Assembly: GCA_947561395.2 (NCBI GenBank) | Contig: OX387184.1 | Location: 24,108,766-24,172,765 of the forward strand | DNA: 64,000 nt | DNA from: Buxus sempervirens | Taxonomy: Eukaryota > Streptophyta > Magnoliopsida > Buxales > Buxaceae | Reading direction: 5' to 3' | In this document: positions 4,740 through 57,986 of the stretch, in pieces | Position numbering within the stretch: position 1 is the first letter of the stretch | Layout: each line of letters opens with the position of its first letter | Notes under the pieces: generated by a model | What the model saw: the letters and a program-made list of their open reading frames with translations, nothing else | Told to the model about the DNA's origin: nothing | The model's database searches: none | Translations under genes and position numbers: made by a program

Positions 4740-4842
4740 GTATTCGGCAACTCAGGTCGGATACACTTGGTCTGCAGGTGATCCGGCCTTGATGGCTGGG
4801 TATGCTAAGGCCCTAGGTGATTCGGCCTGAGTTGCCGGATCA
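4740..4842. promoter_or_regulatory. 39-bp-phased dyad cluster in LTR B (three copies)
   Basis: Three dyads of 9+7+9 nt with centres at 4752, 4791 and 4830. The first is GTATTCGGC-(7)-GTCGGATAC; the third is TGATTCGGC-(7)-GCCGGATCA. The centres are exactly 39 bp apart. LTRs G and D have the same three-copy cluster at the equivalent place. Confidence 0.85.
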
Positions 4843-5743
4843 CCCTGGAATGGCCTTTTTGGGTTTTGGCCTTTCAGGATTGGTTCCAGGGGCTCCAAGG
4901 ATGGTTCTGAAGGTTTCATGGGCCCCTGTGAAGGCCCACGTAGGTTCAGACTTGGGAGAAGAAGCCTTCCTTGGCTTCTTTCATGACTTCCAGCAAGAGG
5001 GAAGGGGAATGGGGAGCATGCTTGGGTCCAAGGCTACTACTTTCATGCAAAGAAAACAGAAACCTATACTAACACATGATGCATGGAATTCACAGCAAAA
5101 CCTCACAGGCTATACATATGCATTTTATCTTGAAGAAATAAAGAAAGGAAGAGAGGGGGTTTATCATGGGGTACATCAGATTACATACCAAGGAGGAACA
5201 CGCTCCTCCAGAAAAATACCTTAAGTTGGATCTCCAAACAGAAGATACGGCATACTAGAAAGCATATAAGACTGGACTTTTGTGCCTCTTAAGCTATCCC
5301 TACGTGGGTATCATGCATGTGGTAGCTCCATGCCATGAAAGGAACGCCATATGCATGCATGGATCATGCTAAAACAGGGCCATGCAGAACAAGAAAACAA
5401 ATGGAAGCATATATCTTCAGAAAAATCTAGATTTAATATATGTTGAATATAATGTGTTAGGGAACACTACCTGAGGGTTCTTGGTCTCTTGAGCAAAGTG
5501 GAGACACCTCCTTTGGCTTGAACAGCAGCTGGAGCTCCTCCTTTGGCCACCACAGCAGTAGCTTCCTCTTGCTTCAACCGAGAAAGGGAAAGGGGAAGAA
5601 GGAGTCCAAGACTTGGAGGGGTATAGGTAGGTGATGGAAGCCAAGAGGGGTGGGAAGAGGTGGTATTCGAAGGGGGTAGGTGAGAGAAGAGAGCAGGGAA
5701 AAAGGAAAAACAAAAGCCAACCCCGGACTGAGCTGCTGTTTTG

Positions 5744-5752
5744 CTATTTATA
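5744..5752 (-). promoter_or_regulatory. LTR B TATA box (sense strand minus)
   Basis: The reverse strand reads TATAAATAG. The dyad cluster beginning at 5764 lies 12 bp upstream in the transcription direction. LTR D has the same arrangement. Confidence 0.6.
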
Positions 5753-5763
5753 GGCAATTTAAT

Positions 5764-5998
5764 GTATCCGGCAACTCAGGCCGGATACACTAAGACCTCT
5801 TCGTATCCGGACTTCAAGTCCGGATACACTGGCTTCCCTTTGTATCCGGTAACTCAGGGCGGATACATGACTTATTCATTTTGAAATTTAATGCCGCCGC
5901 GAATCTGTCAGCCAAGTGGCGCGAATATCTTTATGTATCCGGTCTTCAAGTCCGGCCATGAAGGATAGGCAGGGTATCCGGTACATGTAACCGGATAC
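5764..5998. promoter_or_regulatory. 39-bp-phased dyad clusters upstream of the LTR B TATA box (3 + 2 copies)
   Basis: Dyads centred at 5776, 5815 and 5854, then 5947 and 5986; every step within a group is 39 bp. Arms: GTATCCGGC/GCCGGATAC, GTATCCGGA/TCCGGATAC, GTATCCGGT/GGCGGATAC and GTATCCGGT/ACCGGATAC. The last base pair of the arm changes C-G, A-T, T-A with its partner. Spacers are always 7 nt (aactcag, cttcaag, acatgta). Confidence 0.9.
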
Positions 5999-7202
5999 AA
6001 ATCGAAAAATTACGGATTTGCCCTTCGACTTGACCGATTCGATCAATTTGACCCTTTTTGATATCTACGGATCGCCTGTACGAAATTTTTATATTTAAGA
6101 TTTAGTCTCTGAGATATTTTGCTGCGTTGGCTACCACGTGTGCAGCTTTTGCGCCACGTGTGCAGTTTCCGGCTTTTGCTATCCGGAAACTTCGACAGAT
6201 CATATCTCCTTCATCCGAACTCCGATTTGAGCAAACTCAATTGTGTTAAACTCGTATCGGAGCCCTCTATTTAATGACATGGGGCCAAGCACTTGACACA
6301 GATTCTGAGAAAAAGTCAACTTTTGGCCTTCCCTTAAGTTTGACTGCCCTCAGAACCTTCATCCGGACTCCGATTCCTGCAAACCCGATTGCGCTGGAAC
6401 CGTGTCGGGATTCTCTATCCATTGGGCTAAAGTAAGGTATTTGGCACGGAAATCAAGGAAAAGTCAACTCTTGGCTTTTCCTTAAGTTTGACCGCCCGCA
6501 GAACCTTTATCCGGACTCCGATTCCTGCAAACCCAGTTGCGCTGGAACCGTGTCGGGATTCTTTATCCAACAGGATAGATCAAGGTTAACCAAATTTTAT
6601 CTGATTTAAAGGTCAACTTTTCACCCCTTAGGGTTTGACTTCTTGGCCGGGTTTTTACATTTTCTGGCTTTTTGGGAGTGCAAAAATGAGGTGATTCTGG
6701 TGTTAGTCGGAGTAAAGAGGGGTCGAAGATGTCACTGCGACTGGAAGCAGTGAGAGAAGTCCTAGTTTATCCGTCTGTATTAGAGGGGATAAAGGATCAC
6801 GGATGATCAAAATAATGTAATAACCGGTTGCGGTTGTGTGGATTGTGTCCTTGAGCTCTTCAAATTGATGCCTTTTATAGCCGATCCTTGACGGTTGCTC
6901 AACGTCCTACTCTTGCACGATCTTCATGGCGGTTGGTCATCTTCAGTTCTCTGTTTCAGAATGATAACCGCCCGGCCATGATCTTAAAATAATTTTATTC
7001 TGGAACGGCCGATGGCACGATCTTCTGATATTTGTGGTTTTGTCGTATTGGCTTGCGTGGCTCGAACCGCATTCTTCTGTATGCGTGCTGACGTGGCCTG
7101 CTCAACCATTCAAAGCCTACGTGCCTTGATGTCGTGGCCTACCTAAGCCACCTAGGCTCCACGTGTCCTTCTCTTATTCGTCGGTTATATAGGGTGTAAA
7201 CA

Positions 7203-7213
7203 TTGCCCCCCTA
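7203..7213 (-). promoter_or_regulatory. E1 polypurine tract
   Basis: The reverse strand reads AGGGGGGCAA immediately before the LTR start TGTTTACA, as expected for the plus-strand primer of a minus-oriented element. Confidence 0.8.
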
Positions 7214-18030: not shown

Positions 18031-20122
18031 TTGGTAGTTCTTTGAGTTCGGCGATTGCGGCTACCTCTGTAATCTGTAGTTGCGCCGTTTGTAGTATAGC
18101 CGAACTTGAAGTGATCGGCTGCCCATTCTTGTCATATCCACTAAATGAAATTGGTTTTACCCCTTCGTTATAAAGGGATGCATGTGCGGCGTTGGAATCT
18201 ACGGCAAATGGCCGCTGGTCGGCTTTTACTTCTTCGGTCTTGCCATCCTTCCAAAACAGCAACGATTGGTGCAAAGAAGATGGTACGCATTTGTTCGAAT
18301 GGATCCAATCTCTTCCCAGCAATGCGTTGTATCCGGCGGATGATTCAATTACGAAGAATGCCGTAAGAGATTGCCGTGTCCCAACCGTTAGTTCGATTGG
18401 GAGGATTCCTCTAGTTCTTGTAATACCTCCTGCAAAGTTAGTGACCGTGATCTTGGAAGAAATTAAATCCGAATAAGACTTACCTAATTTCTTCAATGTG
18501 GAGATTGGGATGAAATTTATTGCTGCCCCATTATCAATTAAAACTCTATTGATAGGGATCCCTTTCATGTGCGCCTTTATAAATAAAGGTTTCAGATGTT
18601 GAGTGATGGTTAAGGATGGTTCAACGAAACATACCTCTCCCACCAGACCGATTTTGTCACCATCGGCCGGTTTCTGGTCTTTTTTCTCTTCTTCGAGATG
18701 TTCCGGATCAATCACATACAAAGCTACTGGGTCTTCCTCCTCCTGGATCTCCTCTAACCGTGGTAACTCCATGCTGGCCCCAAAAGTCATAGGTAAAGTG
18801 AGGACCATGTGGCAGTCAAGTGGTATTGGGGGCATTCGGCCGAAACAAATTTCAGCTATTGATGCATCTGCACTCAGAGGAGGTTGACTCAGTGACTCAC
18901 TGATCTCGTCTTTCGGAGTTTTGAGCGTCAATTCCTCCGTTATTTCTACCGTAGAAGGAGTTGAGATCCTGCTATATTCTGTTAACAATTGTTCAACTAA
19001 AAATTGTTCTCCTTCTCCTCCGGCGAAATTGTCCGTCAATTTCTCGTCCGAAACCAGCCTTTCGGTCACTGCATTGGAATTGTGTTCGGGCGTAGTATTT
19101 GGAGCGATTGGTGAATCGGGTGGGCTCTTTTTGAGCCTTTGTGGTTTCGGAATGCGCCTTTTGGCAACAAACCTAGACGACCAATATGGCTCGGATGATC
19201 CAGTACTCTGTTCCTGGTATCGTCTCTTAGCTTGCTGTCGCTGCCAGCGTCGCTTCTGCGTTCTGGTCAGTTCTGCGATACTTGCCTGCGCATGGAAAGG
19301 AAATTTAGGATGAGTCAATCTTTTCCAGTGACCATCCTGAATAATAGGTGGTTTTACCATCCTGGGTTTGACCCTGTTTACCATCCTATATTGTTCGTGA
19401 GTCATGTAGCCGCTATCCCTAGCGGAGCTATAGGTGGCTGCCGTCCTTGTCGGCGAGCCTACTTGTCTTCCAGAAGTTAAGTACAAGGGTCTCTTGCCCC
19501 CCTGAGTGTGGCGTGCATCTTCATACTTGACGGATTTCCCTTTGTACTGGGAATACCGGTATTCTGCTATCACGTTTTGCTTGCAGTCTTGGCAAAGGAG
19601 GCCTGGTGACATTTCTATTTTCTCCGGAATCTTGCATGATGTATCTTTATTAACGGAAGAATCCTCTGAGGATTTAGCAACCGTTTCCGGTCGCTTTTTG
19701 GTTGTAGCTTGATTGGAAGACAATTCAGAAGGAACCGAAGCCAATTTCTTTGTTGTTTTTTCATCGAGGTCTTGCTTCCTGTCTTCTTCGATCATGGGTT
19801 CGCGTCTGGACTTATGCCACCATTCACCCCAGATTTCACCTCTCCTTTCTTGACGCCATGACCGTCCTTGTGTAGGTGGATACCACCAATGGTTTCTTGG
19901 CCGTAAATTCACCTGGTTTTGTACTGGTTGTGCTGTTTTCCCCCATTTCCCTGATGAGGATCCATCCAGGTCGATTTTAACTGCTGGAGTGCGTTTTGGC
20001 AAACCAATGGTAACCATATTCACCGACACCTCTTTAGGGAATGGTTGTGTGTCAACCTGCATCTTCTCTTTGTCGGTTTCTGCAAACTTCAGGAGCCCTT
20101 TATCAATATTCTCCTGTATCAC
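18020..20122 (-). CDS. E1 gag C-terminal part and protease (fossil)
   Basis: Reverse-strand frame of about 700 residues with no ATG of its own. It begins directly at the end of an LTR copy (20123) and therefore represents only the later part of gag. The aspartic protease follows near residues 530-640, with the motif VLIDNGAAINFIP and the later LLGRDWIH block. The long Ser/Pro/Lys-rich middle is typical of the Tat gag-protease linker. It overlaps the pol frame slightly, consistent with the readthrough or frameshift expression used by such families. Confidence 0.85.
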   Translation of the reverse strand: MIQENIDKGLLKFAETDKEKMQVDTQPFPKEVSVNMVTIGLPKRTPAVKIDLDGSSSGKWGKTAQPVQNQVNLRPRNHWWYPPTQGRSWRQERRGEIWGEWWHKSRREPMIEEDRKQDLDEKTTKKLASVPSELSSNQATTKKRPETVAKSSEDSSVNKDTSCKIPEKIEMSPGLLCQDCKQNVIAEYRYSQYKGKSVKYEDARHTQGGKRPLYLTSGRQVGSPTRTAATYSSARDSGYMTHEQYRMVNRVKPRMVKPPIIQDGHWKRLTHPKFPFHAQASIAELTRTQKRRWQRQQAKRRYQEQSTGSSEPYWSSRFVAKRRIPKPQRLKKSPPDSPIAPNTTPEHNSNAVTERLVSDEKLTDNFAGGEGEQFLVEQLLTEYSRISTPSTVEITEELTLKTPKDEISESLSQPPLSADASIAEICFGRMPPIPLDCHMVLTLPMTFGASMELPRLEEIQEEEDPVALYVIDPEHLEEEKKDQKPADGDKIGLVGEVCFVEPSLTITQHLKPLFIKAHMKGIPINRVLIDNGAAINFIPISTLKKLGKSYSDLISSKITVTNFAGGITRTRGILPIELTVGTRQSLTAFFVIESSAGYNALLGRDWIHSNKCVPSSLHQSLLFWKDGKTEEVKADQRPFAVDSNAAHASLYNEGVKPISFSGYDKNGQPITSSSAILQTAQLQITEVAAIAELKELPNDG

Positions 20123-21220
20123 TGTTTACACCCTATATAACCGACGGATAAAAGAAGGACACGTGGAGCCTAGGTGGCTTAGGTAGGCCATGACATCAAG
20201 GCACGTAGGCTTTGAATGGTTGAGCAGGCCACGTCAGCACGCATACAGAAGAATGCGGTTCGAGCCACGCAAGCCAATACGACAAAACCACAAATATCAG
20301 AAGATCGTGCCATCGGCCGTTCCAGAATAAAACTATTTTAAGATCATGGCCGGGCGGTTATCATTCTGAAACAGAGAACTGAAGATGACCAACCGCCATG
20401 AAGATCGTGCAAGAGTAGGACGTTGAGCAACCGTCAAGGATCGGCTATAAAAGGCATCAATTCGAAGAGCTCAAGGACACAATCCACACAACCGCAACCA
20501 GTTATTATATTATTTTGATCATCCGTGATCCTTTATCCCCTCTAATACAGAAGGATAAACTAGGACTTCTGTCACTGCTTCCAGTCGCAGTGACATCTTC
20601 GACCCCTCTTTACTCCGACTAACGCCAGAATCCTGCCACCGGAGAGTAAGTTGAGGCCGCCTCTGACTCGCAGTTCTGTCCTTACAGAATCCCGAGCAGC
20701 CGGTCCCGAGACTCGCTCTGTTCACGCCAGGTGACTCATGTATTTTCGGGTAAGCAGCAATCCAAGGTGAACCCCCTGAACTGGCTTTGTTAGCAGCCGC
20801 CCCCTTCCTCCTGCCCTTATACCCGATTACGGCTATAAGACCAGGACAGGCCGGTCCTGCGAGCCCTGTCAGTTTTCTTTTTTACTTTTGTTTCCCTTTT
20901 GAGGATTATCTGTTGTCGCTTTCGGCTATTCGGCCGATTTAATAATAAAGGATTTGTGTACCATTAGTTGCTTTCGCTTTCGAACACTTACAAGAACCCA
21001 AAACGAAGACCGAACCCCTAGTCTTCATACCATCGCCTGACCGATTTTATTACAGGTGACTTGCAGTACGACTGAACCGATCCTGGTTCAGATTCGGAAC
21101 AGGTGCCCGGGGTCAGGAATCGACTCGAAAATCATTGTATCAAACGATACTGGCACGCCCGCGTAGAGACACATCACCACCTTCGACATGTGTCCACACC
21201 GGCCCATTTTTGGAGCAACA
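20123..21220 (+). repeat. extra E1 LTR copy inside the gag region, opposite orientation
   Basis: Full-length 1098-bp LTR (TGTTTACACC...GGAGCAACA) in plus orientation, opposite to the two terminal LTRs. It contains a TATA box (TATAAAAG at about 20446). The 5-mer GTGAT adjoins its left edge (as ATCAC, 20118-20122) and also adjoins the neighbouring LTR at 22755-22759, marking the target duplication of a nested LTR insertion. Confidence 0.9.
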
Positions 21221-22759: not shown

Positions 22760-23857
22760 TGTTGCTCCAAAAATGGGCCGGTGTGGACACGTGTCGAAGG
22801 TGGTGATGTGTCTCTACGCGGGCGTGCCAGTATCGTTTGATACAATGATTTTTGAGTCGATTCCTGACCCCGGGCACCTGTTCCGAATCTGAACCGGGAT
22901 CGGTTCAGTCGTACTGCAAGTCACCTGTAATAAAATCGGTCAGGCGATGGTATGAAGACTAGGGGTTCGGTCTTCGTTTTGGGTTCTTGTAAGTGTTCGA
23001 AAGCGAAAGCAACTAATGGCACACAAATCCTTTATTATTAAATCGGCCGAATAGCCGAAAGCGACAACAGATAATCCTCAAAAGGGAAACAAAAGTAAAA
23101 AAGAAAACTGACAGGGCTCGCAGGACCGGCCTGTCCTGGTCTTATAGCCGTAATCGAGTATAAGGGCAGGAGGAAGGGGGCGGCTGCTAACAAAGCCAGT
23201 TCAGGGGGTTCACCTTGGATTGCTGCTTACCCGAAAATACACGAGTCACCTGGCGTGAACAGAGCGAGTCTCGGGACCGGCTGCTCGGGATTCTGTAAAG
23301 ACAGAACTGCGAGTCAGGGGCGGCCTCAACTTACTCTCCGGTGGCAGGATTCTGGTGTTAGTTGGAGTAAAGAGGGGTCGAATATGTCACTGCGACTGGA
23401 AGCAGTGAGAGAAGTCCTAGTTTATCCGTCTGTATTAGAGGGGATAAAGGATCACGGATGATCAAAATAATATAATAACCGGTTGCGGTTGTGTGGATTG
23501 TGTCCTTGAGCTCTTCGAATTGATGCCTTTTATAGCCGATCCTTGACGGTTGCTCAACGTCCTACTCTTGCACGATCTTCATGGCGGTTGGTCATCTTCA
23601 GTTCTCTGTTTCAGAATGATAACCGCCCGGCCATGATCTTAAAATAATTTTATTCTGGAACGGCCGATGGCATGATCTTCTGATATTTGTGGTTTTGTCG
23701 TATTGGCTTGCGTGGCTCGAACCGCATTCTTCTGTATGCGTGCTGACGTGGCTTGCTCAACCATTCAAAGCCTACGTGCCTTGATGTCGTGGCCTACCTA
23801 AGCCACCTAGGCTCCACGTGTCCTTCTCTTATTCGTCGGTTATATAGGGTTTAAACA
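22760..23857 (-). repeat. E1 5' LTR
   Basis: 1098 bp, sense on the minus strand (TGTTTAAACC start at 23857). The outer flank GTTAC (23858-23862) matches GTTAT at 3098-3102. Sense TATA box TATAAAAGG at about 23525-23535. Confidence 0.9.
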
Positions 23858-24003
23858 GTTACCTACCTGACAGCCCCATCAAAATTAATCTTGAGGAAAG
23901 GAGGACTTTGTATTTCCCAGCCTGTGTGAATATGTCTCCAGGTGATGTCAACTTTCATAGTGTTACACTTCAAAATGGTAGTATTGTGTAAGATGTACGA
24001 GAG
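23858..24003 (-). mobile_element. LINE-type RNase H domain, 5' portion
   Basis: The reverse strand reads HTGWEIQSPPFLKINFDGAV, the typical first strand of the plant LINE RNase H domain (K.N.DGAV). It is the other half of the sequence at 2660-3102, separated by E1. At 24004 it is cut by LTR G. Confidence 0.7.
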
Positions 24004-25259: not shown

Positions 25260-25331
25260 TATAGACACCCCAAATTGCACTATGAAAAGATGAATAATTG
25301 GCCAAAATCATTAAAAAAGCTTTTTTCTTTT

Positions 25332-25474
25332 GTATCCGATGTAAAAATTTCGGATAAAGGCATTATCTTGTGTATCGGACATTAATTGTCGGATAAAAAT
25401 TGATTTGTTTGTATCCGACAGATAATGTTGGATACAAAGAGGGTTATTAGTATCCGACCTGAGTTGCCGGATAC
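25332..25474. promoter_or_regulatory. dyad cluster in F LTR (four copies, 39-40 bp pitch)
   Basis: Centres at 25344, 25384, 25423 and 25462. Arms GTATCCGAT/TTTCGGATA, GTATCGGAC/GTCGGATAA, GTATCCGAC/GTTGGATAC and GTATCCGAC/GCCGGATAC, each with a 7-nt spacer. Confidence 0.88.
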
Positions 25475-38734: not shown

Positions 38735-41603
38735 ATGGCCCGTCTTCGATCAGCTTCCCGGGATCCTGCAGATGAGCCTTCCTCTTCGAGGGTTAGGCGG
38801 GATCATGCTGATGTGGCCTCGTCTTCGAGAGCCGAGAGAGATTCGGATTCTGATGTCCCTGATCTCCCTTCTGGGGATTCGCGTGAGGCAACCCTAGAGG
38901 TATATTCTAACCTGTCTGAATTCAATATTTTCACCAAATATCTCCTCTTGATCCTTTCCTTCTTTCAATTATTTTCTTTTAGCCGGCTGTTGAGGCTTCG
39001 GGCAAAGATAGGAGCCGTAGCAGGCGTCGAGCTGGAGGCAGAGATGGAGGCCATGATGAGGCCCGTAGAGGAGGCCGCAGAGGGGGCCGTGGCAGAGATG
39101 AGGCCAGGACCAGGGTTGAGATCCCTGAGGAGGTGGCTGCCCAGATTAGGGATACCGATCTTTTGCATGGCTTGAGGACTCATCCCTCAGCGTGTATTAG
39201 GGCGGATATCCCTTTGGAGTATCTTATGTCCCACTATAGAGGGAGCTGGGCTAGTTTTATTAGATTCTTGGGAGCCTGCAGTTCAGCCTACCGCCGGGAG
39301 CTAGGCTTATATGGCTTCGGCCTGTTTATCACCATTCCGGACGTGCGCATGGATCGAGCCCTCATTGCTGCACTGCTTGAGAGATTCTTCCCGGAGACAT
39401 TGAGCTTCCACTTCCCAGATATTGAGATTGGGATCCGGCCTTCTGACTTCACCCTTATCACCGGGATTAGGATGATTGGTGATATCATTCCTGAGATGGC
39501 GATGCCAGAGACTGATGAGGTTGCCGCTTATCTTGGATATATCGTGCTGCCTCCTGAGGCATGGGATAGAGGGAGAGCGAGATTGTCTCTGACATGGTTG
39601 AGAGAGACCTTCAGGGTGAGGCAGTTTGGCCAGCTTGCCTCTGGTGATCATGTTTTCCCGTATGCCTTTCAATTCCTTTTTCTGTACATGATGGGATCTT
39701 GCTTCTTCCCAGAGGACACGACTTCGGTTAGTCCTTATTTTCTGAGCTTACTGGGGGATCTGCATCGAGCGAGGAGGTACGCCTGGGGCCCGCTCATTTT
39801 TGGCACTATTTTGGCCGGCCTTCGCCGATCAGTGAGCGGCCTCTCTACTTCTAGAGGGGCTGGAGTTGGGGGCTGATTCTTCTGGCCCTTTCTGCAGGTG
39901 AAATATCTATTTCCTTTTCTCTTTCTTTCTCTCTTTCTATATCTCTTTTTCTATTCCTTTGACTCTCTTTTTTTTTGTCTGCAGTTCTTTGCTAGGGTTT
40001 ATATACCCTATTTCCGCCCTACCTCTACGATGTCTGAGGAGACGTATCCCATGGCACGTAGATGGTGTCATGTAGAGCAAGACTCTGAAAAGAGTCGTCC
40101 TAGGTCCGCCCGGGCCCACTTGGACAGGCTGTACCGGTCTGAGGTAATTTTCTTTAATTCCTCTACTTTCTTCTTTTCTTTTCTTCCTGAATCACATATC
40201 TGATGTCCTGTTCTGTTTTTCAGCTATTTGTCCCCAGGATGGAGGACATTCATGAGGTGCTGGCCCTGCATGCAGCCAGAGATGATGCATTTGTCCCTGA
40301 ATAGAGATGACAGAGATACCAGTTCTTTATTGGTCAGATGGGCAGCATTTGGTACTGCGGCGAGCGCTTCTTTTTTCAGCATGTAGGAGAGCCGCGGATT
40401 CTTGCCATTCCTCCAGATACTACCCCTTCCTACCCTCCTATGCCTGTTGATCCTGCCCAGTTCCTAGATTGGACTGAGGCAGAGACATTATTGGAGGAGG
40501 GTGACTATGATGCCTGGTTCAGGCGGGCTTTAGTTGGGTGCCTCATGCCACCTATGCTTGTCCGTGGCGGAGTCACTGAGATTGGAGGGGTAGTGATTAG
40601 GGCTTATGACACTACGGTATGCCTTCTTCCTTTTCACTTTTCTATTTTCATTTGATCTTGACATTTTCTGACCCTTTCTTTTCTATTTCAGGAGGCTCAG
40701 TTGGCAGAGATCCGGTCTCGATATGCTGATCTAGAGCGCCAGCGAGATGCTGGGATTGCTGAGAGGGACGCCCTCTATATCAAGATCTCAGACCTCCGGG
40801 TACAGCTAGCCAGAGCACAGGGCCAGGAGGGTCCATCTGATGCACAGGACCAGGCGGGTCCATCTCATACTCAGGTTAATTTCTTCTTTTATTTCCATTC
40901 CTGCTCTTGCATTAGTTTGTCTTGTTCTGACTGAAATTTCTTCTCTTAGTTTCAGGAGGACATGGCCGGCCCTTCTTCACCTGCTTCACCCGTGCCCATG
41001 CATCTTCGTGGTGAGGTATTTTCTGTGGCACGGGTGGAGTTCGTGACGTCTCCCAGTCCGGTGGAGGCACCTGTAGCAGAGCCTGAGATCGAGGCTGATA
41101 TTGTACCTGCTGCTGAGGATGTGCCAAAGTCTGCCCCAGTTCCCGAGACTGCTCCTGTGGCATCCGCGGATGTAGATATGGAGTCGGCTAGGGATGCCAC
41201 TGTGGTAGAGCCTACCGTGGAGGCCGTGGTGATGGAGGAGGCTACAGTTGATCCTGTGCCTGAGGTGGATGCTGATATACCTGGGACATCTACTCCTGCT
41301 GGTCATGCCATGGAGGCTATAGAGGAGACGCCTGCTGCTACTGATCCTTCTGCGGATTCTTCCCGTACTGATTCTGATCCCGAGTCTACGGGATATGTAG
41401 ATACTTCAGGGTACGTCCCTCCTGATCATCCCACTGCTGGCCTTGTGCCTTTATATATGTGGTATGATATTCAGTCTGTTTTGAGCAGGATGACTCGTAG
41501 CACTGCCCGCAATATTGTGCGGCATGTCTTTGAGCGCAGGCGATCTTCAGGCCGTGGTCGGGGCAGAGGACGAGGCCGTGGCCATAGGGGCGGACCTGCA
41601 TAG
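38735..41603 (+). CDS. C antisense gene set 1: plant mobile domain (MAIN/PP7-long-form type) protein (fossil)
   Basis: Multi-exon antisense gene. Exon 1 (38735-38899) begins MARLRSASRDPADEPSSS and ends at a GT donor in phase 0. The next block (from 38983) starts with an Arg/Gly-rich tract and then a plant mobile domain: HYRGSWASFIRFLGACSSAY, LLERFFPETLSFHFP and the DFTLITGIRMIGD block, equivalent to the family's RW.PET.tFh and L.D...LtGL motifs. Later pieces (40020-40200, 40338-40620, 40693-40875) are separated by T-rich introns. The last block (40962-41603) is acidic, Pro/Ala/Glu-rich and ends in an RG repeat (GRGRGRGRGHRGG), a nucleic-acid-binding tail. Broken in places. Host PMD proteins take part in transposon silencing; the function of the element copy is unknown. 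Confidence 0.65.
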
Positions 41604-41842
41604 ACAGTAGATTAGGATTTTTGATATACATGTATTTTGACAAAAGTGTTGTGCATATTCATATATATAAAAGAAATTTGATTTTCATTCATTTGTGCTC
41701 TTTTCTTCTCTGTTTTCAGTTATTATTACATCATGAATGTTAAAGCAGGGACAGGTGAAGCTTAGGGAAACAAGGAAATTAAGAATTCCCATTTTTTTGC
41801 ATTTTTTCGAAGGAACCATACTTAATCTACGAGTAAGCCGTG

Positions 41843-41943
41843 CCCGTAAAGTTACTACGGGTGCACTCTGCCCGTGAAGTTTTCACAGTCCAGGGTGTCC
41901 GTAGTTCCTATACGGGCGTGCTTTGCCCGTAGTATAATTACGG
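41843..41943. promoter_or_regulatory. half-site cluster directly upstream of C antisense gene set 2
   Basis: CCCGTA-7-TACGGG-7-GCCCGTG, then CCGTA-7-TACGGGC-7-GCCCGTA-7-TACGG; centres 41852, 41866, 41907, 41921 and 41935. Every spacer is 7 nt. The TATA box starts 25 bp downstream. Confidence 0.9.
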
Positions 41944-41967
41944 AATTTACTGCCTTACGATTTTTTC

Positions 41968-41975
41968 TATATAAA
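41968..41975 (+). promoter_or_regulatory. TATA box of C antisense gene set 2
   Basis: TATATAAA about 60 bp before the first ATG (42028), just downstream of the half-site cluster. Confidence 0.6.
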
Positions 41976-42027: not shown

Positions 42028-43820
42028 ATGTATTTTCTCACTTCCCTTGGTTTCTTTGGCGCTTCCATGGCTTCCCCTGCACCATTCTCTTCTGTCGTTG
42101 AATCTCCTCCTGTAAGACAACATGTTAGATCCAAATCTCCTAATCTCACTAGGTATAATGTGGTAGATTCTTTCTATGACAGATGGGTTAACTCCATGAC
42201 CCTTGATGAGGAGATTCGTTGGGATTCCATCCACTTAGGGCATATCCTACACATCCCTAAAATTCCCTTTAAGTGGGAAATCATTGAAGCCTTGATTGGA
42301 CACGGGTTCCCGAACTGAATCTCTTCCGCTTTGATGATAAAGAGATGACTCCTACCATAGAAGAAATTGAAACCATCCCTGGCTTAAAATTTTCTGAAAA
42401 AGTTGTGAACCCGCCCCTAAAGCCTAGTTACAAAAAGGAGGCTTCCACTTTCTTGGGTATAGGGAAAAAAGACTTAGGAAATTCTGATACCCTATTGACC
42501 TTGTCCAAGACCTTTTTGACTGAAAAACTTCTAAGGAGTGGGGACAAGGATGCCAGGTTTAATGCTTTGACTTTGGTAGTGGTCAACCAGCTGCTTTTTC
42601 CACGGGGTGATGACCAGGTTGACTTGGCTCTCATTTCAGTTATTTGCCAGGTTAGGGAACGTGAGAGGTTGGCCCCTATGATCTTAGCAGAGATATACCA
42701 GGCCCTTACTGACTGTTATTTTAGAAAGAAGAAGCGCTTCCTTGCCTGCGCCCCTATCCTACAGGTAAAAAATATACATATATTTTTTTCTTTTCTTCTT
42801 CTTCTTCTCTTTTTCTTTTCCTTCTTTTTTTTTTTCTTCTTCTTTTTTTTTTCTTTTTTTTTTCCTTTTTTTCTTTTTCTTTTTTTTTCTTTTTGGAAAT
42901 AAATTGAAATACTCCCCTTTTCTGCAGCTTTGGTTGCTTAACCACCTTAGCCAGGTTGAAGAAATAACTCGCCGCTTCTTTCCAAGATTGAAAGTTCCTG
43001 TTTTTATGAGCAATAGGGGGTGTCCTAACATCCGGGGCGGCAAGCAAGGCTAGTTCACTTTCTTGGGTACTCTCCAGGATGATCAAGTGAGATGGCCTGG
43101 CACTTATCAACCCAATCCAGAGACAGTAATCAGCTTTAGAGATAGGAAATTTCTGGTCCTGGCAGGCTTGAAATCTGCTGTTCTCTATCTTCCTTTGAGG
43201 GTTCTTCGGCAGTTTGGAGCGACCCAGGGAATTATGATCCCAACTGGCTATGAGAGCCTTGTAGGGCCACTTAAATCAGCCACCATGGGGCTAAATGCTC
43301 AATTAATGAATGAGTGGTCCTATGTTCAATTTCTGCGGGGTTCTGTCTTTTCTGAGTCCCATGTGAAGACTATCACTTTTGGATCAAAGAGCAGGTGCAG
43401 AGTCATGCCCCAGTACCAGAGGATCCTCTTGCAGTTCTTCCTCCTACCTATGAGGACATTCTGGAGTCTGAAAGGGCAACCCATAAGCGGCTTCAACAAA
43501 TATGGGTACGAGAAGCTCAAGAACTTAGGATAAAAGTCATTGATCTGGAGAGGAAACTTGAAGAGCAGAAGTCTGGCCGTATTGCCATGGAGAAGAAGCT
43601 TGAAGAACAAAGACAGGCTCGTCGCTTTGAAGTCCGAGTGATGCGGAAGAAATATCAGGATTCCTTGGCCGACCTTAGGGTGTTGAAGATCAAGCATTCT
43701 TTTTCAAATGAAGTCATCTCCTTTTTGAGCGATCCTGATGCAGAAGGAGCTTTTGGAATCATTGCAACTCAGACAGCTAGGATTAGGGAGCTTGAGGAAC
43801 AGTTAGGGAGTAGGGATTAG
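42028..43820 (+). CDS. C antisense gene set 2: PMD-like (DUF7745-type) protein with coiled coil (fossil)
   Basis: Starts at ATG 42028, or alternatively 42067 (MASPAPFSSVVE). The pattern of a WDSIHLGHILHIPKIPFKW helix, then MTPTIEEIETIPGLKF, LVVVNQLLFPRGDDQVD and AEIYQALTDCYFRKKKRFLAC resembles the plant-specific DUF7745 family, often found beside PMD sequences. A pyrimidine-rich intron spans about 42764-42927. The final part (about 43410-43820) is a strong coiled coil (KLEEQKSGRIAMEKKLEEQ). Domain plus coiled coil mirrors the E1 antisense sets. Broken in places; function unknown. Confidence 0.55.
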
Positions 43821-46169: not shown

Positions 46170-47972
46170 CTAATTTTTGGCCCTTGGCATATAATTGAAG
46201 GAAATTCGAGTAAATTTAGTGCTTATTTCTTCCAAATATTGGTGATAGGGGATCAATTTGTGATCCTTGGTTTTCCATTCACTAGTTGTTTGGAAGATGA
46301 TAAGACTCGAATCCCCATATACGTCAAGTTCCTCTACTTCATGGTCTAAGGCAGCTTGCAACCCAATTATGCATGCTTCATACTCTGCTATATTGTTTGT
46401 GCATTGGAACCTTAACTTCACTACGATCGGGATATGTGCCCCATCTGGCTTGATCAAAACAGCCCCTATTCCATTTCCATTCATATTGGCGGCCCCATCA
46501 AAGAACATTTGCCATGAGCTTTCATCTTCTTCTTCCTCAGTAAACAGGATTGCCTCATCAGGGAAATTAGTCTTCAAAGGTTGGTATTCTGGTAAAGGGT
46601 GTGCGGCTAAGTGATCAGCAATGGCTTGACCCTTAATAGCTTTCTGTGTGATATAGGTGAGGTCAAATTCAGAGAGTAACAACTGCCACTTTGCTGTTCT
46701 GCCAGTTAAAGCCGGTTTCTCAAATAAATACTTTAAAGGGTCCATTCGGGATATCAATAAGGTGGAATGACTAAGGAAATAATGCCTCAGCCTCTGAGTT
46801 GCCCATACTAATGCACAACAAGTCTTTTCCAAAGGGGAATACTTTGCTTCATATTCCGTGAACTTTTTACTTAGATAGTAAATGGCCCTTTCCTTTCTGC
46901 CTGTATCATCATGCTGTCCCAAGACACACCCCATTGACGTCTCCAAAACTGACAAGTATAAAATCAATGGTCTTCCTGGAGTTGGTGGTACTAGCACAGG
47001 TGGGTTCAATAAATACTCCTTTATTGTGTCAAAGGCTTCTTGGCAATCGTCATTCCAGATTGTCGGGTTATTCTTTCTTAGAAGCTTGAAAATTGGTTCA
47101 CAGATAGCGGTGAGCTGTGCTATGAACCGGCTTATGTACTGAATCCTTCCAAGAAAACCACGAACTTCCTTCTCCGTTCTAGGTGATGGCATTTCAATGA
47201 TTGCTCTGGCTTTAGCTGGGTCAATCTCAGTTCCTTTCCTACTTACTATGAAGCCCAATAATTTTCCTGATGTAGCCCCAAAGACACATTTTGCAGGGTT
47301 AAGCCTTAGACTGTATTTCCTAAGTCGGTCAAACACCTTCTTTAAGTTGATCAAATGGTCCTCTTCTTTACATGATTTGGCTATCATATCATCCACATAG
47401 ACCTCCATCTCCTTATGGATCATATCATGGAATAAGGCTGTCATGGCCCGCTGGTAGGTTGCCCCTGCATTCTTAAGCCCAAATGGCATGACAGTGTAGT
47501 GGAAGGTACCCCAAGGTGTAATGAAGGCCGTTTTCTCTTGATCCTCCTTTGCCATCTTAATTTGATTGTACCCAGAAAACCCGTCCATGAAGGAGAACAG
47601 ACTATGTACAACAGTGTTATCCACCAAGATGTCTATGTGTGGAAGTGGAAAATCATCCTTTGGACTTGCCTTATTCAAGTCTCTGTAATCTACACACATT
47701 CTGACCTTTCTATCTTTCTTTGGTACTGGCACTATATTTGCAAGCCATTCAGGGTATGTAGAGATTGCTAAGAACCCAGCTTGGAATTGCTTAACCACTT
47801 CATCTTTGACCTTCAATGTCCATTCAGGTTTTAACCTTCTCAGTTTCTGCTTAACTGGCTTAACATCTGGTAGAATGGGTAGCCTATGCACAACCATGTC
47901 TGTGTCTAATCCAGGCATATCTCGATACGACCAGGCAAATACATCTTCATAATTAGCCAAGAACCGTATCAT
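46170..47972 (-). CDS. C reverse transcriptase and two RNase H domains (fossil)
   Basis: Reverse transcriptase with RMCVDYRDLNKASPKDDFPLP, FSFMDGFSGYNQIKM and YVDDMIAKS, then gypsy RNase H (LVWATQRLRHYFLSHST), then an archaeal-type RNase H beginning WQMFFDGAANMNGNGIGAV with NIAEYEACIIGLQAAL and VYGDSSLII. The two RNase H domains mark it as Tat/Ogre. About 600 residues open. Confidence 0.95.
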   Translation of the reverse strand: MIRFLANYEDVFAWSYRDMPGLDTDMVVHRLPILPDVKPVKQKLRRLKPEWTLKVKDEVVKQFQAGFLAISTYPEWLANIVPVPKKDRKVRMCVDYRDLNKASPKDDFPLPHIDILVDNTVVHSLFSFMDGFSGYNQIKMAKEDQEKTAFITPWGTFHYTVMPFGLKNAGATYQRAMTALFHDMIHKEMEVYVDDMIAKSCKEEDHLINLKKVFDRLRKYSLRLNPAKCVFGATSGKLLGFIVSRKGTEIDPAKARAIIEMPSPRTEKEVRGFLGRIQYISRFIAQLTAICEPIFKLLRKNNPTIWNDDCQEAFDTIKEYLLNPPVLVPPTPGRPLILYLSVLETSMGCVLGQHDDTGRKERAIYYLSKKFTEYEAKYSPLEKTCCALVWATQRLRHYFLSHSTLLISRMDPLKYLFEKPALTGRTAKWQLLLSEFDLTYITQKAIKGQAIADHLAAHPLPEYQPLKTNFPDEAILFTEEEEDESSWQMFFDGAANMNGNGIGAVLIKPDGAHIPIVVKLRFQCTNNIAEYEACIIGLQAALDHEVEELDVYGDSSLIIFQTTSEWKTKDHKLIPYHQYLEEISTKFTRISFNYMPRAKN

Positions 47973-48043
47973 TTCATCCCGCTGTACCTCAGATAAGCAT
48001 ACCCCAATCTTTACTATCTTTGGGTCATCTTCGATCCCTAGGT

Positions 48044-48926
48044 TTATTGATATGGTCTCTTCAATATTGGGTTGACCCCCTTTTCATGACGCTCCAATTG
48101 ATATGTGATTTCTTTTGGAGGGTCGTCTTCTTCGTCCTCGGTCTCTTCTTCAACCCCCATTAGGTCAAAGTCGAGCTCAAGGTCGAAGTCATACTCATCG
48201 TGATCCAATTCTGTTTGCTTATATGGTTCATAAGTGGTTTGGACCTTTTTGAAAATTTTATCTTTTCTATAAAAAATTGAAAAATCTTTTTGTGTTTTTT
48301 GAGAGCCTTCTACAAAATCTTTCCCTGAAGACGAAGGCTCATTAAAACCTTCAGGAAAAGGGCATTCCACTAATAGAGTTTTTTTTGGGAGCCATGTCTG
48401 TTTGCCAAACAAACGCGGCTTCAAAAGTAAGGGGAGTTTCCTTCCAATTATTCAGAATAAAAGAATCTGGGGCAGGGATACAAGCCTGCTCCTCAAGCTC
48501 AGGGTCTGCATCTGAAATCACCAATACTGGGTGAGTTGCGTCACCTGCTTCTTCTGCAGGGCTTGTTCCAGATGGAACTTCTATTGCAGCTCAATCAATA
48601 AAAGGTAGCTCCTCTGCTACTTCTTCTTGGTTGCCTTCTGTCATGGCAAAGAATGCTCACACGTCCTCAGAAAAGTCCTGCTCCTGTTCTGTATGTAGCC
48701 CAGGCCCACCCAATGCTTGTGGAGGTGGAGGTGGAACATATGGTTGCACGGTTGAGGACTTGGGTTTCTGAAATGGATTGATGTTATAGTATGGGGGTTT
48801 GGACTGATCCTTAGGAGGAGACAGCTGAATCATGTAAGAAAGCTTAGGGAAAGTTTCCCTGATGTGCGGGAATTTTATGTCTTCTCTTTCCTTCTGACTT
48901 CTCCATTTCCTTGGCTTGGACCCCAA
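48044..48926 (-). other. C protease-RT connecting region
   Basis: Acidic frames (LDHDEYDFDLELDFDLMGVEEE, then EEDDPPKEITYQLERHEKGV) and a Pro-rich frame (KDQSKPPYYNINPFQKPKSS). In Ogre elements an intron lies between protease and RT and the polyprotein is made by partial splicing, so the interruptions here may be partly intronic. F has the same region at 61413-62350. Confidence 0.55.
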
Positions 48927-52239: not shown

Positions 52240-53345
52240 AAAGAGAGAAAGATCTGAAATTCGAAGGCTTTCAGAGGCTCGCGGGGGGGGGGGGGGGGGG
52301 GGTTTGAAAAAGGTCTGAAATTCAAAGGCTTTCAGAGGCCCAGGGATATTTTGAGAAAAAGTCTGAAATTCAAAGGCTTTCAGAGGCCCAGGGATATTTT
52401 GAGAAAAAGTCTGAAATTCAAAGGCTTTCAGAGGCCCAGGGATATTTTGAGAAAAAGCCTGAAATTCAAAGGCTTTCAGAGGCCCGAGGTTTTTTGATAG
52501 AAGTTTGAAATTCAAAGGCATTTAGAGGCCCAAAGAGTTTTTGAGAAAAAAGTCTGAAATTCAAAGGCTTTAAGAGGCCCAAAGATCCGAAATTCAAAGG
52601 CTTTCAGAGGCCAAAAAGAAAAAGGTCTGAAATTCAAAGGCTTTCAGAGGCCCAAAAGATCTGAAATTCAAAGGCTTTCAGAGGCCCAAAAGAAAAAGGT
52701 CTGAAATTCAAAGGCTTTCAGAGGCCCAAAGATCTGAAATTCAAAGGCTTTCAGAGGCCCAAAAGATCTGAAATTCAAAGGCTTTCAGAGGCCCAAAAGA
52801 AAAAGGTCTGAAATTCGAAGGCTTTCAGAGGCCCAAAGATCTGAAATTCAAAGGCTTTCAGAGGCCCAAGGAGTTTGTGAGAAAAAGTCTGAAATTCAAA
52901 GGCTTTCAGAGGCTGAAGGATTTTTGAAAAGTCTGAAATTCAAAGGCTTTCAGAGGCCCAGGAGTTTTGAAAAAGTCTGAAATTCAAAGGCTTTCAAAGG
53001 CCCAAAAGAAAAAGGCCTGAAATTCAAAGGCTTTCAGAGGCCCAAAAGATCTGAAATTCAAAGGCTTTCAGAGGCCCAAAAGAAAAAGGTCTGAAATTCA
53101 AAGGCTTTCAGAGGCCCAAAGATCTGAAATTCAAAGGCTTTCAGAGGCCCAAGGACATTTTTGAGAAAAGATCTGAAATTCAAAGGCTTTCAGAGGCCCA
53201 AGGAGTTTTTGAGAAAAAGTCTGAAATTCAAAGGCTTTCAGAGGCCGAAGGATTTTTGAAAAGTCTGAAATTCCAAAGGCTTTCAGAGGCCCAGGAGTTT
53301 TGACAAAGTCTGAAATTCAAAGGCTTTCAGAAGCCCAAGGAACCT
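52240..53345 (-). repeat. minisatellite in C leader (about 28 copies of a 33-50 bp unit)
   Basis: Core TCTGAAATTCAAAGGC followed by TTTCAGAGGCCC, with variable tails (AAAAGA, AAGGAGTTTTTGAG, AGGGATATTTTGAG). Includes a run of about 20 G near 52281-52301. Short frames across it are repeat artefacts. Confidence 0.95.
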
Positions 53346-54815
53346 TTCTCTCACATTTTTTTTATTCAATTATTTATTTTTTTTTGAAGCATTTTATTCA
53401 AACTTGTTTCCCTTTATTATTATTTAAGGGTTAAAGGAAGATTTTAGTGGGAAAAGCTGATTAAAGTTGAATCCTTCGAGAAAACCGTATATTCACCACG
53501 GTCCGGCCTTGCCCGTGTTCATATTACGAGCAGGCCGTGACCATATGACCAACACGGGCGAGCTCAGCCCGTATAACCAATACGGGCGAGCCCAGCCTGT
53601 GTACTAAATGCGGTTTTACGGAGCTCTTTTATGTTTTTTCAATTTTTACGTGGTTTGATCACTTTGATTGCTCGTCCAAACATACGGTTCACCCATTGCA
53701 GAGCTTCTAAACTGTCCCAAAGTGGACTTTGACCTTTTTGCTAAAACACATGTTTAGGAAGGCACATGTACCCTCCAAATTGACACCATACTCAAGAATT
53801 TGGTACCTTTTTGTTGCCTCTTGTATGAACATAGGGTAGGATTGATTCTAAACAAAGTTAGAAACTCTTCCTATGGGCTGCACCAATTTTAAAAACATGC
53901 ATATTTTGGGACCAATTTTATCCCGAACCAATGGGCACCATGACACCCCTATGACATGATAATAAATCAAAGCAATAGGATTACCTTGTTACCTTGTTTA
54001 CCTTCAATATGGCATCCGCATTATGCCCTAGTTTGTAAGCCATGCAAACGGCCTTCCCACAATTACAAACCCATATTCCCACGTAATTGTGTATTTTAGC
54101 CAAAAACGTGTAACTCCACCTTCAAGCGTAGGGGTTTTGGGTTTTGGCTTAATGGCAACTTAGCACTCAAACCTAGTGATGACCAGAATCCCAGATCCAC
54201 GTTATCATCACATCATTAGCTCAAAGTTCTAAGGTGAATGTTTTCACTTTCGCTTTCTGAAGTATCGACCTCGTTGCGCCAAGCTACACACATTCGGGTT
54301 CAACTTCCTATGGGTTAAGGGTAGGCTGTGTAAAAAAAATAAAAGGTGCACAGTGCATTGTAAAAATAGGGTGCATTCACAGCGTCCCAAACCCTTGCCA
54401 CTCTTTTCGCAGCCATGCATAAACAAACCAAGGCATAATAGGAAAGCATATTTAAAGTAAACAAATACACAAACCATCCTATAGCACCTAAAACATGCTC
54501 ATAAAAAATCATCTAATCATGCAAACATATGATCATGTTATACACCCAAAATCATCATGGAGATTATGCTGAAAATTAAAACATGCTATCATAAAAATAT
54601 AGCAAGAAATAAGCATGGTTCAGCAAAACGAACCTCCCCTACGCATGTTTGTAGAAACAATCCTATAAATCAAAATTAAGCATGTTTCTACCCCCATGAA
54701 TTCTTAAGCAATAATTCAGATTTAAAACATATCCCATATGCTTAAGAACACCAAACAGCAAGCAAATCAAAAAATCAAAAACATGAACAAACACCAAAAG
54801 GCTGAAATCCTCAAG
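53346..54815 (-). other. C leader between minisatellite and primer site
   Basis: Non-coding leader. It contains the half-site cluster at 53485-53621 and the block conserved with F (about 54120-54330). Frames here are short and unsupported. Confidence 0.6.
53485..53621. promoter_or_regulatory. half-site cluster in C leader
   Basis: CCGTA-7-CACGG, CACGGTC-7-GCCCGTG-7-TACGAG, then ACGGGC-7-GCCCGTA-7-TACGGGC-7-GCCTGTG. It occupies the same place, between 5' LTR and gag, as the F cluster at 29621-29762. Confidence 0.82.
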
Positions 54816-54835: not shown

Positions 54836-56640
54836 TGTGAGACATGGGAAAAGATCAGAATAATGACTTCCTCTAATCATCACGCGGGATTAAATAGAAC
54901 AAAGAGTCGCCACCATTCAATTTAGGTGTGAATGGACACCAAAATATTAAATAAGCACAAAAGGCAATTTTAGGGTAAAAATAACCCTCCTTAAAAAACA
55001 ACCAGAGATGGGTAAGGGGATTAGGTTATGAACAGGGGAAGGTGTTAGGCACCCCTATTCATCTACACAAGGTGGTTGCCAGGTATTGTTCATGTTTTTC
55101 AAAGAAAAAAGGGCTTGCTATAAAATTCATGAAAATCACAAAAAGACAAAAATATATGGTTTTTTCATATGAATAGTCTGATTGATCCAGAACTCTCAAA
55201 TATGATCATACCATTCCTAGGGTTTCATGATCAAAATAAAATTGAGATAAAATCAAATAAAATCAATTTAAAGTGAAAAATCCAAAAATCTGGCTTCAAG
55301 TCAAATTCTAGAAATCTAGAAAAATATGATTTTTATAAAATACTTCAAAATTGAACTTGAATAGTCCAGGACATAGATAGAGCCCAAATTTCACATTAAA
55401 TCTGAAAATAAAAACCAAAAATACCCACGTTGATGAGGAACATCAAAAGGGGAGAATTTAGACCGTAGGGTCTTCTCTCAATAATGAAAAACGATTTAAA
55501 AACCACATCATGAAACCCTAGAATTTATTTTCAGGCCTTTGGATCCAGATCTATCATATTGATCATGATAAATCTAAGATCCTAGCCTAAAACTAAAAAA
55601 ATCACGAAAACAGTGCTGTAGGTGCAAATATGTGGAAAATCCAAATTTTATAAAAAAGTGGGGATCTCATGCTATAAATATCATGGATATCATGGATTCA
55701 TTCAGATTCATCATAGAAAGCATTAAAACATGATCAGGATATTCAAAGCAGCCACATCTCACAGATTTGAGCACATGGGGGTCTACCCTACGGATCCACC
55801 TGTTCTCTTTTCCCATAGCTCTCTCTTCACGTTTTACGGCTAGAGAAGATTCTTGAGGTACTTGGAGATAGGTTTGGTTATACAAACACAATCAAAGGCT
55901 TTATTCTAGAAAAAAAAAGAAAAACAGATATGGGGTTCTATTCTAGGGATCCACCTGTTCTCTTTTCCCCTAGCTCTCTCTTCACGTTTTACGGCTAGAG
56001 AGACTCTTGAGGTACTTGGAGACAAGTTTAGGAATATAAGACAAAATATGGCCTTATTCTACAGCAATAGAGATGATCCTATTACTTCTTGAATTGAAGA
56101 CAGAAAATAAAAGGGAAAAGGGACTTACCTGGATTGAGCAAGCAAGGCAGCAGGGGTTCCTCTTCTTCTCTTGGAGCTTCTTAGACTTCAAAATTTCGTG
56201 GCCTTTTGCTTGAGGAAAGGCCCTCTATTTATAGGCAAACACAGGGGTATGGTTGGTCCAAGGTTTGGCAAGATAGAGTTTCAGTTTGAGTTAAACACAA
56301 GATCATGCCCATCCATAGCCAACCAAGGTGGCTTCAGCGAATAAAAGACGTAATTCGCTCATTTAAAGATATATTGGACTAAAGATAAAGCTCGGAAATC
56401 GAGAGAAGGACAGAACTCGCACGAGTCTTTAGTGACCGTAAATGAATTGCGGTCCAACGGTGACCTTATTGTTACTACGGGCGCGCTTGACTGTAGAGCG
56501 ATCTCGGGCGCGACCGGCCCGTGAATGAAATACGGGCAAAGCCTGTTTAGTCAATTTTTATGCATTTTTGACCTGTTTTAAGCTCTAATTACATGTTTTT
56601 ATTACTTTCTCATTCTGTAGTGCAATTTGGGGTGTCTACA
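54836..56640 (-). repeat. C 5' LTR
   Basis: About 1805 bp, near-identical to 35130-36932. Sense TATA box at 56225-56233; half-site cluster at 56464-56545. Short frames within it match nothing. Confidence 0.93.
56464..56545. promoter_or_regulatory. TACGGGC/GCCCGTA half-site cluster in C 5' LTR
   Basis: TACGGGC-7-ACTGTAG-7-TCGGGC, then GCCCGTG-7-TACGGGC, 230-320 bp upstream of the sense TATA box at 56225-56233. Confidence 0.75.
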
Positions 56641-56650
56641 ACAGGACAGT

Positions 56651-56714
56651 GTATCCGGCATTCTTCGCCGGTTACAAGCAGATCTCTGTTGATCCAACCT
56701 GAGTTGCCGGATCA
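56651..56714. promoter_or_regulatory. dyads 2 and 3 of the proximal cluster of LTR D
   Basis: GTATCCGGC/GCCGGTTAC (centre 56663) and TGATCCAAC/GCCGGATCA (centre 56702). Ignoring element C and one ACAGG, the step from dyad 1 (35108) to dyad 2 is also exactly 39 bp. Confidence 0.88.
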
Positions 56715-57740
56715 ACATACAGAATCTATTTTTTTGGATTTTTCCAATGGGGTTGGTTTCTTGGGTCTCCTAGGATGTTCTGATAATCGTGTGGGCCCCC
56801 GGGAAGGCCCACACAGGTACTGGAGATGAGGAATCACCTCATCTCTTGGTCTTTCTTGAAGGTCTTCCCCTTTCCTTATGACCAAGGAAGTTGCCTCCCC
56901 CTCTTGGGGCTGCTAATGGCAATTAACAGGGACCAAGAGGTCCCTGTCTTGGCTCTCCCACTCACACAACAGCGGGTGGTACAAGGGCTAGGCAAAAATT
57001 AGACAAAAACACACACCAAGAACATGTTTCCTAATCTCTACCCATGCCAACACGCATAAGCATGCACTTTACCACTAATCATGCTCAAAACAGGCACTTA
57101 ATTTAGCAAGAGCAAACCAAACAAGAAGGGATGAGAAAGGGGGTCACTTAGGGATACACTAGATGAAATATGAGGAACATGCATCCTCTTAATAACAGCT
57201 CCAATAAGACCAAAACAGTAGCTTGAGATGGCCCAAACTGTGAGGGGCCATCTCTCATTCTCCCATAGAACCAAACGTGGAGTCTCTCTTACCCTTAGAG
57301 ATCTCCACCTTACCAAAAGAGAGAAGAAAACATACACAAATGGACACTGAGACTAGATTTATGCTTGGGAAGAAGGCAAGATTAGAAAATCTCTTTAGAA
57401 AGTTCTGATTTTAATATATATGCAACATAAGATGGTGAGGAACCTCACCTGGTGGTTCTTGAACCCTTGAGCAGTGTAAAGACACTCCCTTGAAGCACGA
57501 GAAGCTGCTGGAGCAGCACCTCCAAGCACCAACAGCAAACTCACCTTCTTCCTTTGAGATTTGAAGTGGAGAAGATGAAGGATGGAAGAAAAAGAATGGT
57601 CTTTAAGGTTTGGGTGGGCAAGGAGGGGTTAAAGTGGGAGGTTTCGGACCAGGTGTAGTGGGGGAGAAGGGATGGAAACAACCTAAAAGAAGCCAACCCC
57701 GGAAATGGGGCTGCTGTTGCCTTTTTATAGAAAACTTAAT

Positions 57741-57986
57741 GTATCCGGCATTCAATGTCAGATACACTACACTTCCTTTGTATCCGGCATATTATGTCGG
57801 ATACACTGCACTTCCTTTGTATCCGGCATATTATATCGGATACAAAACATAATAATTTCAAAAATTAAATGCCGCCGCGAATTTGTTGGCGAATCGGCGC
57901 GAATCTCGCCAAGCAAATCTTTGTATCCGGCATTTGATGTCGGTTATACAGAAACCCATGTGTATCCGATATATTTGACCGGATAC
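57741..57986. promoter_or_regulatory. 39-bp-phased dyad clusters upstream of LTR D TATA box (3 + 2 copies)
   Basis: Centres at 57753, 57792 and 57831, then 57935 and 57974. Arms GTATCCGGC/GTCAGATAC, GTATCCGGC/GTCGGATAC, GTATCCGGC/ATCGGATAC, GTATCCGGC/GTCGGTTAT and GTATCCGAT/ACCGGATAC; 7-nt spacers throughout. The linkers in the first group are 14 nt (ACTACACTTCCTTT, ACTGCACTTCCTTT). Confidence 0.9.

Follow-up and report, generated by a model that had tools for sequence, protein, structure and literature searches.

Arrays of CCG-N11-CGG dyads at a fixed pitch in Tat-like LTR retrotransposons of Buxus sempervirens: candidate promoter arrays for a dimeric DNA-binding factor

Why should a 25-nt dyad, two complementary 9-nt arms around a 7-nt spacer, be repeated every 39 bp in several long terminal repeats (LTRs) and in one leader of the same locus? 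The question is raised by a single 64-kb window of Buxus sempervirens (contig OX387184.1, positions 24,108,766 to 24,172,765), to which the whole analysis refers. Self-BLAST and reading of the junctions show it to be plant-like DNA dense with nested LTR elements, designated A, B, B2, D, F and G below. The original prediction took the geometry to be selected while the arms vary freely and proposed either a binding array for a dimeric protein or a series of RNA hairpins. Here the dyads and their pitch of 39 bp are confirmed as real and the geometry as non-random. Judged from the sequence, the arrays are rather probably cis-regulatory, serving at promoters as binding sites of a dimeric factor, so that this part of the earlier interpretation stands as the best reading; freely varying arms and 39 bp as an invariant do not.

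All the dyad centres listed previously were found (Table 1). Among the 24 dyads outside the weak G array (20 of 27 arm cells Watson-Crick) the step of 39 bp and the spacer of 7 nt hold generally, the exception being dyad 25344: its best centre is 25344.5 and its spacer is even, which is the source of the single step of 40 bp. The geometry was compared with 100 dinucleotide shuffles in a scan for 9-7-9 dyads with at least 7 of 9 positions paired and two long tandem arrays masked. The scan returned 183 dyads, nine pairs of which are 39 bp apart and seven 78 bp apart; the shuffles contain on average 0.18 pairs at 39 bp (maximum 2), and at most 4 at any single distance up to 120 bp. The two-dyad pattern CCG-N11-CGG-N22-CCG-N11-CGG, with up to two mismatches, occurs 16 times versus a mean of 0.29 in 100 shuffles (largest value 3), and 15 of these matches lie within the named arrays. 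The pitch is thus clearly above chance in the window. No match to the two-dyad pattern was found in prokaryote genomes. A three-half-site pattern seen in three viral contigs at a pitch of 38 or 40 was judged, from about 210 bases of each, to be due to chance.

The assignment of the arrays to elements had to be revised. B, B2 and G are paralogous by self-BLAST, form one LTR family and are read on the minus strand; minus-strand TATA boxes are present in B and B2, and what looks like the purine tract that usually precedes a 3' LTR adjoins B2 at 58558. B2, which is ~73% identical to B in the longest matched stretch, spans ~34111 to 58557 and is interrupted by the nested element D, and the array formerly attributed to D belongs in fact to this split LTR. 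With D and one copy of its ACAGG target duplication discounted, the distance between dyads 35108 and 56663 is 21 + 18 = 39 bp (arithmetic on the junctions), so that array 1 of B2 corresponds to the triplets of dyads 4752/4791/4830 in B and 25103/25142/25181 in G. The four separate LTR copies therefore do not count as independent cases: since B, B2 and G are paralogous, the independent cases are the B-type LTR family, the F LTR and the F leader.

These cases share specific bases. Read from the dyad centre outward, the 48 half-sites of the 24 dyads have the consensus TGYCGGATACA, and its CGG positions are kept in 44, 44 and 46 of them; this placement of CGG gives the spacing CCG-N11-CGG. The window holds 31 instances of the core, of which 15 belong to the named arrays, 13 to arrays of D and 3 to neither, versus 3.4 in shuffles (maximum 8); the core has the top z value (11.3) among the 64 trinucleotides at spacings 0-40. 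The opposite order, CGG-N11-CCG, is found 14 times versus 3.6 (maximum 9). The half-site transfers between families, as follows from cross-validation of profiles, from which dyad 25344 was excluded both ways. With a profile made from the 16 B/B2 dyads, 5 of the 7 dyads of the F LTR and F leader outrank every non-array position, the leader dyads 29672 and 29633 being just under the non-array position 9473. Conversely, with a profile from the 7 F dyads 13 of the 16 B/B2 dyads outrank all non-array positions, and 5947, 4791 and 4830 do not. The closest likeness is that of F dyad 25462 to B dyads 4752 and 5776 read in the sense direction, with 24 of 25 bases the same, spacer included. Within the arrays the arms are 61-93% identical and the spacers 0-71%, the arms being above the spacer in all eight arrays and sub-arrays; the description of the arms as widely differing is hence not upheld.

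Two further dyads lie outside this scheme. An isolated CCG-N11-CGG dyad at 9473 (TGATCCGGC...GTCGGTCCT), situated in the antisense region of element A, is the best non-array match of both profiles. B-type LTRs contain a second 9-7-9 dyad, TGGGCCC-CGTTGGA-AGGCCCA, at 4043, 4575 and 34929, with variants at 4225, 34439 and 24903, which lacks the 39-bp pitch.

Several of the arrays are positioned near putative promoters. Dyads of B and B2 are located 24-102 and 195-245 bp upstream of a TATA box, those of the D LTR 211-294 bp upstream, and those preceding the antisense gene of D 33-116 bp before its TATA box; the distances for F are given in Table 1. A dyad occurs in the 350 bp upstream of 7 of the 25 strict TATA sites altogether, versus a mean of 2.11 under circular shifts (p 0.005).

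Table 1. Dyad arrays, TATA boxes, reading frames and LTR elements in the window
Feature	Position	Strand	Details
B array 1	4740-4842	-	dyads 4752, 4791, 4830; 39-bp pitch
B array 2a	5764-5866	-	dyads 5776, 5815, 5854
B array 2b	5935-5998	-	dyads 5947, 5986
G array	25091-25193	-	weak dyads 25103, 25142, 25181; in a B-like LTR, equivalent in position to B array 1
F LTR array	25332-25474	+	dyads 25344(.5), 25384, 25423, 25462
F leader array	29621-29762	+	dyads 29633, 29672, 29711, 29750
B2 array 1, continued	56651-56714	-	dyads 56663, 56702
B2 array 2a	57741-57843	-	dyads 57753, 57792, 57831
B2 array 2b	57923-57986	-	dyads 57935, 57974
D 3' LTR array	36742-36827	-	CGG/CCG with N11; TATA box 36517-36526 (minus)
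D 5' LTR copy of the array	56436-56535	-	TATA box 56225-56234 (minus)
D internal array	37285-37384	.	8 alternating CCG/CGG half-sites, 13-14 bp apart
D array upstream of antisense gene	41838-41943	+	TATA box 41967-41974; ATG 42067
D leader array	53485-53585	-
B TATA box	5744-5753	-	CTATAAATAG; 24 bp from dyad centre 5776
B2 TATA box	57723-57730	-	CTATAAAA; 24 bp from dyad centre 57753
F TATA box	25642-25651	+	CTATAAATAG; 181-299 bp downstream of dyads
DUF7745/plant mobile domain-like frame	42288-42899	+	antisense in D; plant mobile domain score under the Pfam cut-off
Plant mobile domain (PF10536) frame	38983-39873	+	antisense in D
B	3680-6695 (ends approximate)	-	~3.0-kb LTR-like insertion within an unrelated 1.1-kb LTR; self-BLAST, ends read at junctions
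G	24102 onward	-	start of B-like LTR; self-BLAST
F	LTR start near 25260	+	followed by F leader and gag; self-BLAST, junction reading
B2 LTR, left piece	34111-35129	-	homology to B from 34111; holds dyad 35108; self-BLAST, junctions
D	35130-56640	-	nested element; TG...CA ends; 5-bp target duplication ACAGG at 35125-35129 and 56641-56645; self-BLAST, junctions
B2 LTR, right piece	56641-58557	-	self-BLAST, junctions

Element D has a version of the array that was overlooked before, with another motif and a step of 14/28 bp. Its half-sites are built around TACGGGC and alternate in orientation every 13-14 bp. Such arrays are found in both LTR copies (97.96% identical over 1810 columns by self-BLAST), beside the 3' LTR, before the antisense gene and in the leader. 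The longest chain comprises 8 half-sites (37285-37382), and 60 shuffles reach 4, once. A search for the alternating pattern gave 3 matches versus 0.31 expected, with 1 of 100 shuffles as high, which is weaker than the chain test. The D and F LTRs align at their first 20-odd bases and around TTTGCCTATAAATAG, and the arrays between these points do not align; the two LTRs thus have the same promoter position and N11 core, but different motif and pitch. Since D keeps CCG-N11-CGG at a step of 14/28 bp, 39 bp was rejected as an invariant. The ATG of the antisense gene opens 83 codons in a frame different from that of the DUF7745/plant mobile domain match, and both presumably belong to one gene. An NCBIfam search on the question of a plant mobile domain protein gave only weak matches of coiled-coil type, in one of six frames.

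Comparison of units reveals how the arrays change. Linkers, comparable in five arrays, are 31-93% identical; they are below the arms in four and equal to them (93%) in B2 57753-57831. Array 2a of B2 shows a recent unit duplication, and the F leader array shows old or independent units. Between B and B2 the arms are identical at 76 of 90 positions, the spacers at 14 of 35, the linkers at 21 of 42 and the rest of the aligned LTR at 459 of 561. The half-sites thus persist through changes in their own spacers and linkers. The B-B2 alignment has 11 gap events and none of them falls in the arrays, which only suggests that the pitch is under constraint. The arms also covary within dyads: 18 of 207 cells are changed on both sides versus 7.9 in shuffles, and none of 500 shuffles reaches 18 (permutation within groups gives p 0.0014, and another grouping p 0.015). 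The claim that geometry is selected while the arms vary freely does not hold in this form, as the arms share a half-site and tandem duplication clearly contributed (the linkers of 57792 and 57831 in B2 are 93% identical).

A reading that would account for these features is as follows. Each dyad would consist of two opposed half-sites at CCG-N11-CGG bound by one dimeric protein, and several dimers would be aligned at the fixed pitch of 39 bp (14/28 bp in D). Arrays in LTRs, lying upstream of TATA, may drive transcription of the element, and in D a like array also precedes the antisense plant-mobile-domain-like gene. The arrays grow by tandem duplication of units; spacers and linkers then drift and the half-sites persist, selection being the putative cause, and at one and the same place in the promoter related families have exchanged one motif and pitch for another. 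A DNA-binding dimer is favoured because a base-specific half-site is shared and because the arrays are placed upstream of TATA. Several results weigh against this reading. The count of TATA sites is not one of independent cases, as B and B2 are homologous, the D LTR enters it two times and 35413 is probably a chance site. Array 1 of B, B2 and G, the D array at 37285 and the D leader array lack a strict TATA site in the 350 bp downstream of them; all that the F leader offers is a looser TATAAAT at 29775, 25 bp past the last centre; and in LTR family A, where 391 bp of one of the three copies were examined, no array was seen. The arms of B and B2 (84%) surpass their own spacers and linkers in conservation but do not stand out from the remaining aligned LTR (82%), and the chance that none of 11 gaps would fall in the arrays is ~6-8%. 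Finally, the covariation of arms fits hairpins or palindrome correction as well as symmetric dimer sites.

This covariation is an argument for RNA hairpins, the other proposal of the original prediction. Transcribed arrays would then fold into stem-loops for packaging or translation or be cut by the host into small RNAs. In addition, 8 of the 9 array stretches fold with z of -4.9 to -7.8 (G, -2.3), and Sirevirus palindromes have been credited with a small-RNA role (cited in PMC10760457, in part). However, the folds are strong on both strands where both were tried, as expected of any array of palindromes, and they pair mostly arms from different dyads. There is no bias to wobble pairs in the sense strand (of 216 cells, the non-Watson-Crick ones comprise 10 that are G-U in sense, 15 that are G-U in antisense only and 18 others). 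Arrays 2a and 2b are upstream of the LTR TATA box and so would be present only in the 3' end of the transcript, the families share specific bases and not complementarity alone, and no Rfam match reached the gathering score in the window. We therefore consider hairpins an unlikely explanation of the arrays. It is quite unlikely that mutation alone, without any function, produced the arrays, tandem slippage giving the pitch and hairpin-templated correction keeping the arms complementary. Such correction would produce the covariation, and a recent duplication is indeed seen in B2 (linkers 93% identical across 57753-57792-57831). Yet the linkers of the F leader are just 31% identical while the 39-bp pitch is kept three times, the half-site with N11 is common to F and B and the N11 core also to D, and the arrays stay near the promoter.

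If a dimeric factor does bind the dyads, its origin may be asked. A self-encoded circuit of Tat elements can be imagined, in which a dimeric factor particular to each family (the protein with the antisense plant mobile domain, perhaps) would read CCG-N11-CGG at the LTR, the leader and its own antisense promoter, motif and pitch co-evolving with it as a counterpart of VANC or of retroviral trans-activators; this is very doubtful. Hardly probable is the stricter form, in which the antisense plant mobile domain protein encoded by the element itself binds the dyads and counters silencing or activates the LTR, like VANC for VANDAL. It would agree with the array and TATA box directly before the antisense gene of D and with the arrays in LTR and leader, with families that differ in motif at one promoter position as do VANC targets (PMC5735166, in part), and with the transcriptional roles proposed for Retand antisense proteins in the accessible part of PMC11963269. 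On the other hand, DNA binding by the plant mobile domain gained no support (the fold prediction has a mean predicted local distance difference test score of 35.9, and no solved relative was found at E 0.1). Two such frames are present in element A, whose examined part lacks an array, and the antisense genes of the F and B elements are, as far as resolved, outside the window.

The class of the elements was judged on the domain order of A and D, B, B2 and G being LTRs only. In element A an additional RNase H-like RVT_3 domain follows RNase H and precedes H2C2/rve; in D, RVT_3 is at the end of 46173-48083 and rve in the next frame. Both A and D thus have an extra RNase H between RNase H and integrase, and PF10536 is found in antisense frames of both. 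The order reverse transcriptase (RT), RNase H, integrase is that of Ty3/gypsy and not of Ty1/copia elements. According to the available part of PMC6317226, Ogre and Retand carry an additional RNase H-like domain in this very place, and 57% of Ogre elements have an extra open reading frame with a plant mobile domain. For the reverse transcriptase at 62074-63171, a pattern search matched viral contigs 157 times, and tblastn detected no relative.

Other observations on the layout are recorded here. D and F are both nested in B-type LTRs, within array 1 and ~80 bp beside array 1, respectively; two cases prove no targeting. The 1.1-kb LTR is present in three copies (3103-7205, 20121-21220 and 22760-23859). 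The middle copy is in inverted orientation and minus-strand gag/pol lies between copies, which corresponds either to an inversion or to two overlapping elements. The leaders hold long tandem arrays, at 30021-30866 in F (76 bp) and 52303-53341 in D (about 48/74 bp), and an RNase H coding stretch contains a 164-bp tandem duplication (63556-63884, 95% matches).

The original prediction knew of no named motif of this kind. This is true of the Tat literature among the matches listed: none of them reports such arrays for Tat elements, although the search was limited and does not prove absence, and a search with the motif letters gave, among the matches listed, unrelated papers only. The available parts of PMC6317226 and PMC11963269, which describe the same class of elements with the antisense plant mobile domain gene and the added RNase H, make no mention of dyad arrays, either in the LTR or ahead of that gene. 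A close counterpart has, however, been published for LTRs of Sireviruses, where palindromic repeats with a CGG-CCG signature are present upstream of TATA in 8-32 copies and are called Sirevirus-specific (PMC2829016, in part). As in Buxus, these multi-copy palindromes also occupy a second non-coding region and have family-specific outer bases, and the Citrus consensus AATCCGGCTWRCCGGATT resembles the Buxus arms. The differences are that the core spacing is 5 or 6 in the consensuses counted and N11 here, and that a fixed 39-bp pitch is not mentioned in the accessible part of that paper. The hosts also differ: Sireviruses are Ty1/copia, and the elements in question are Ty3/gypsy, Tat-like, with the order RT-RNaseH-RVT_3-integrase. 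A maize survey (PMC10760457, in its available part) saw peaks of hairpins in the LTRs of Copia elements, while those of Ty3 generally had none. The VANC/VANDAL system of Arabidopsis (PMC5735166, PMC10398659, both in part) is similar in its dense short motif, which lies in non-coding regions, spreads by tandem repetition and differs between related families; motif arrays of this behaviour, turning over between relatives, were found here as well. VANDAL is, however, a DNA transposon with motifs in a single orientation, not dyads, and VANC is a known binder while that of the dyads is only proposed.

Palindromic CGG-CCG arrays are thus known as a trait of Sireviruses, and what is added here is the N11, fixed-pitch version in Tat elements. 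The CCG-N11-CGG arrays in Tat LTRs suggest that two superfamilies share a type of promoter device, which a single kind of plant protein may recognize, and the array before the antisense gene of D offers a direct test of what the widespread extra genes do.

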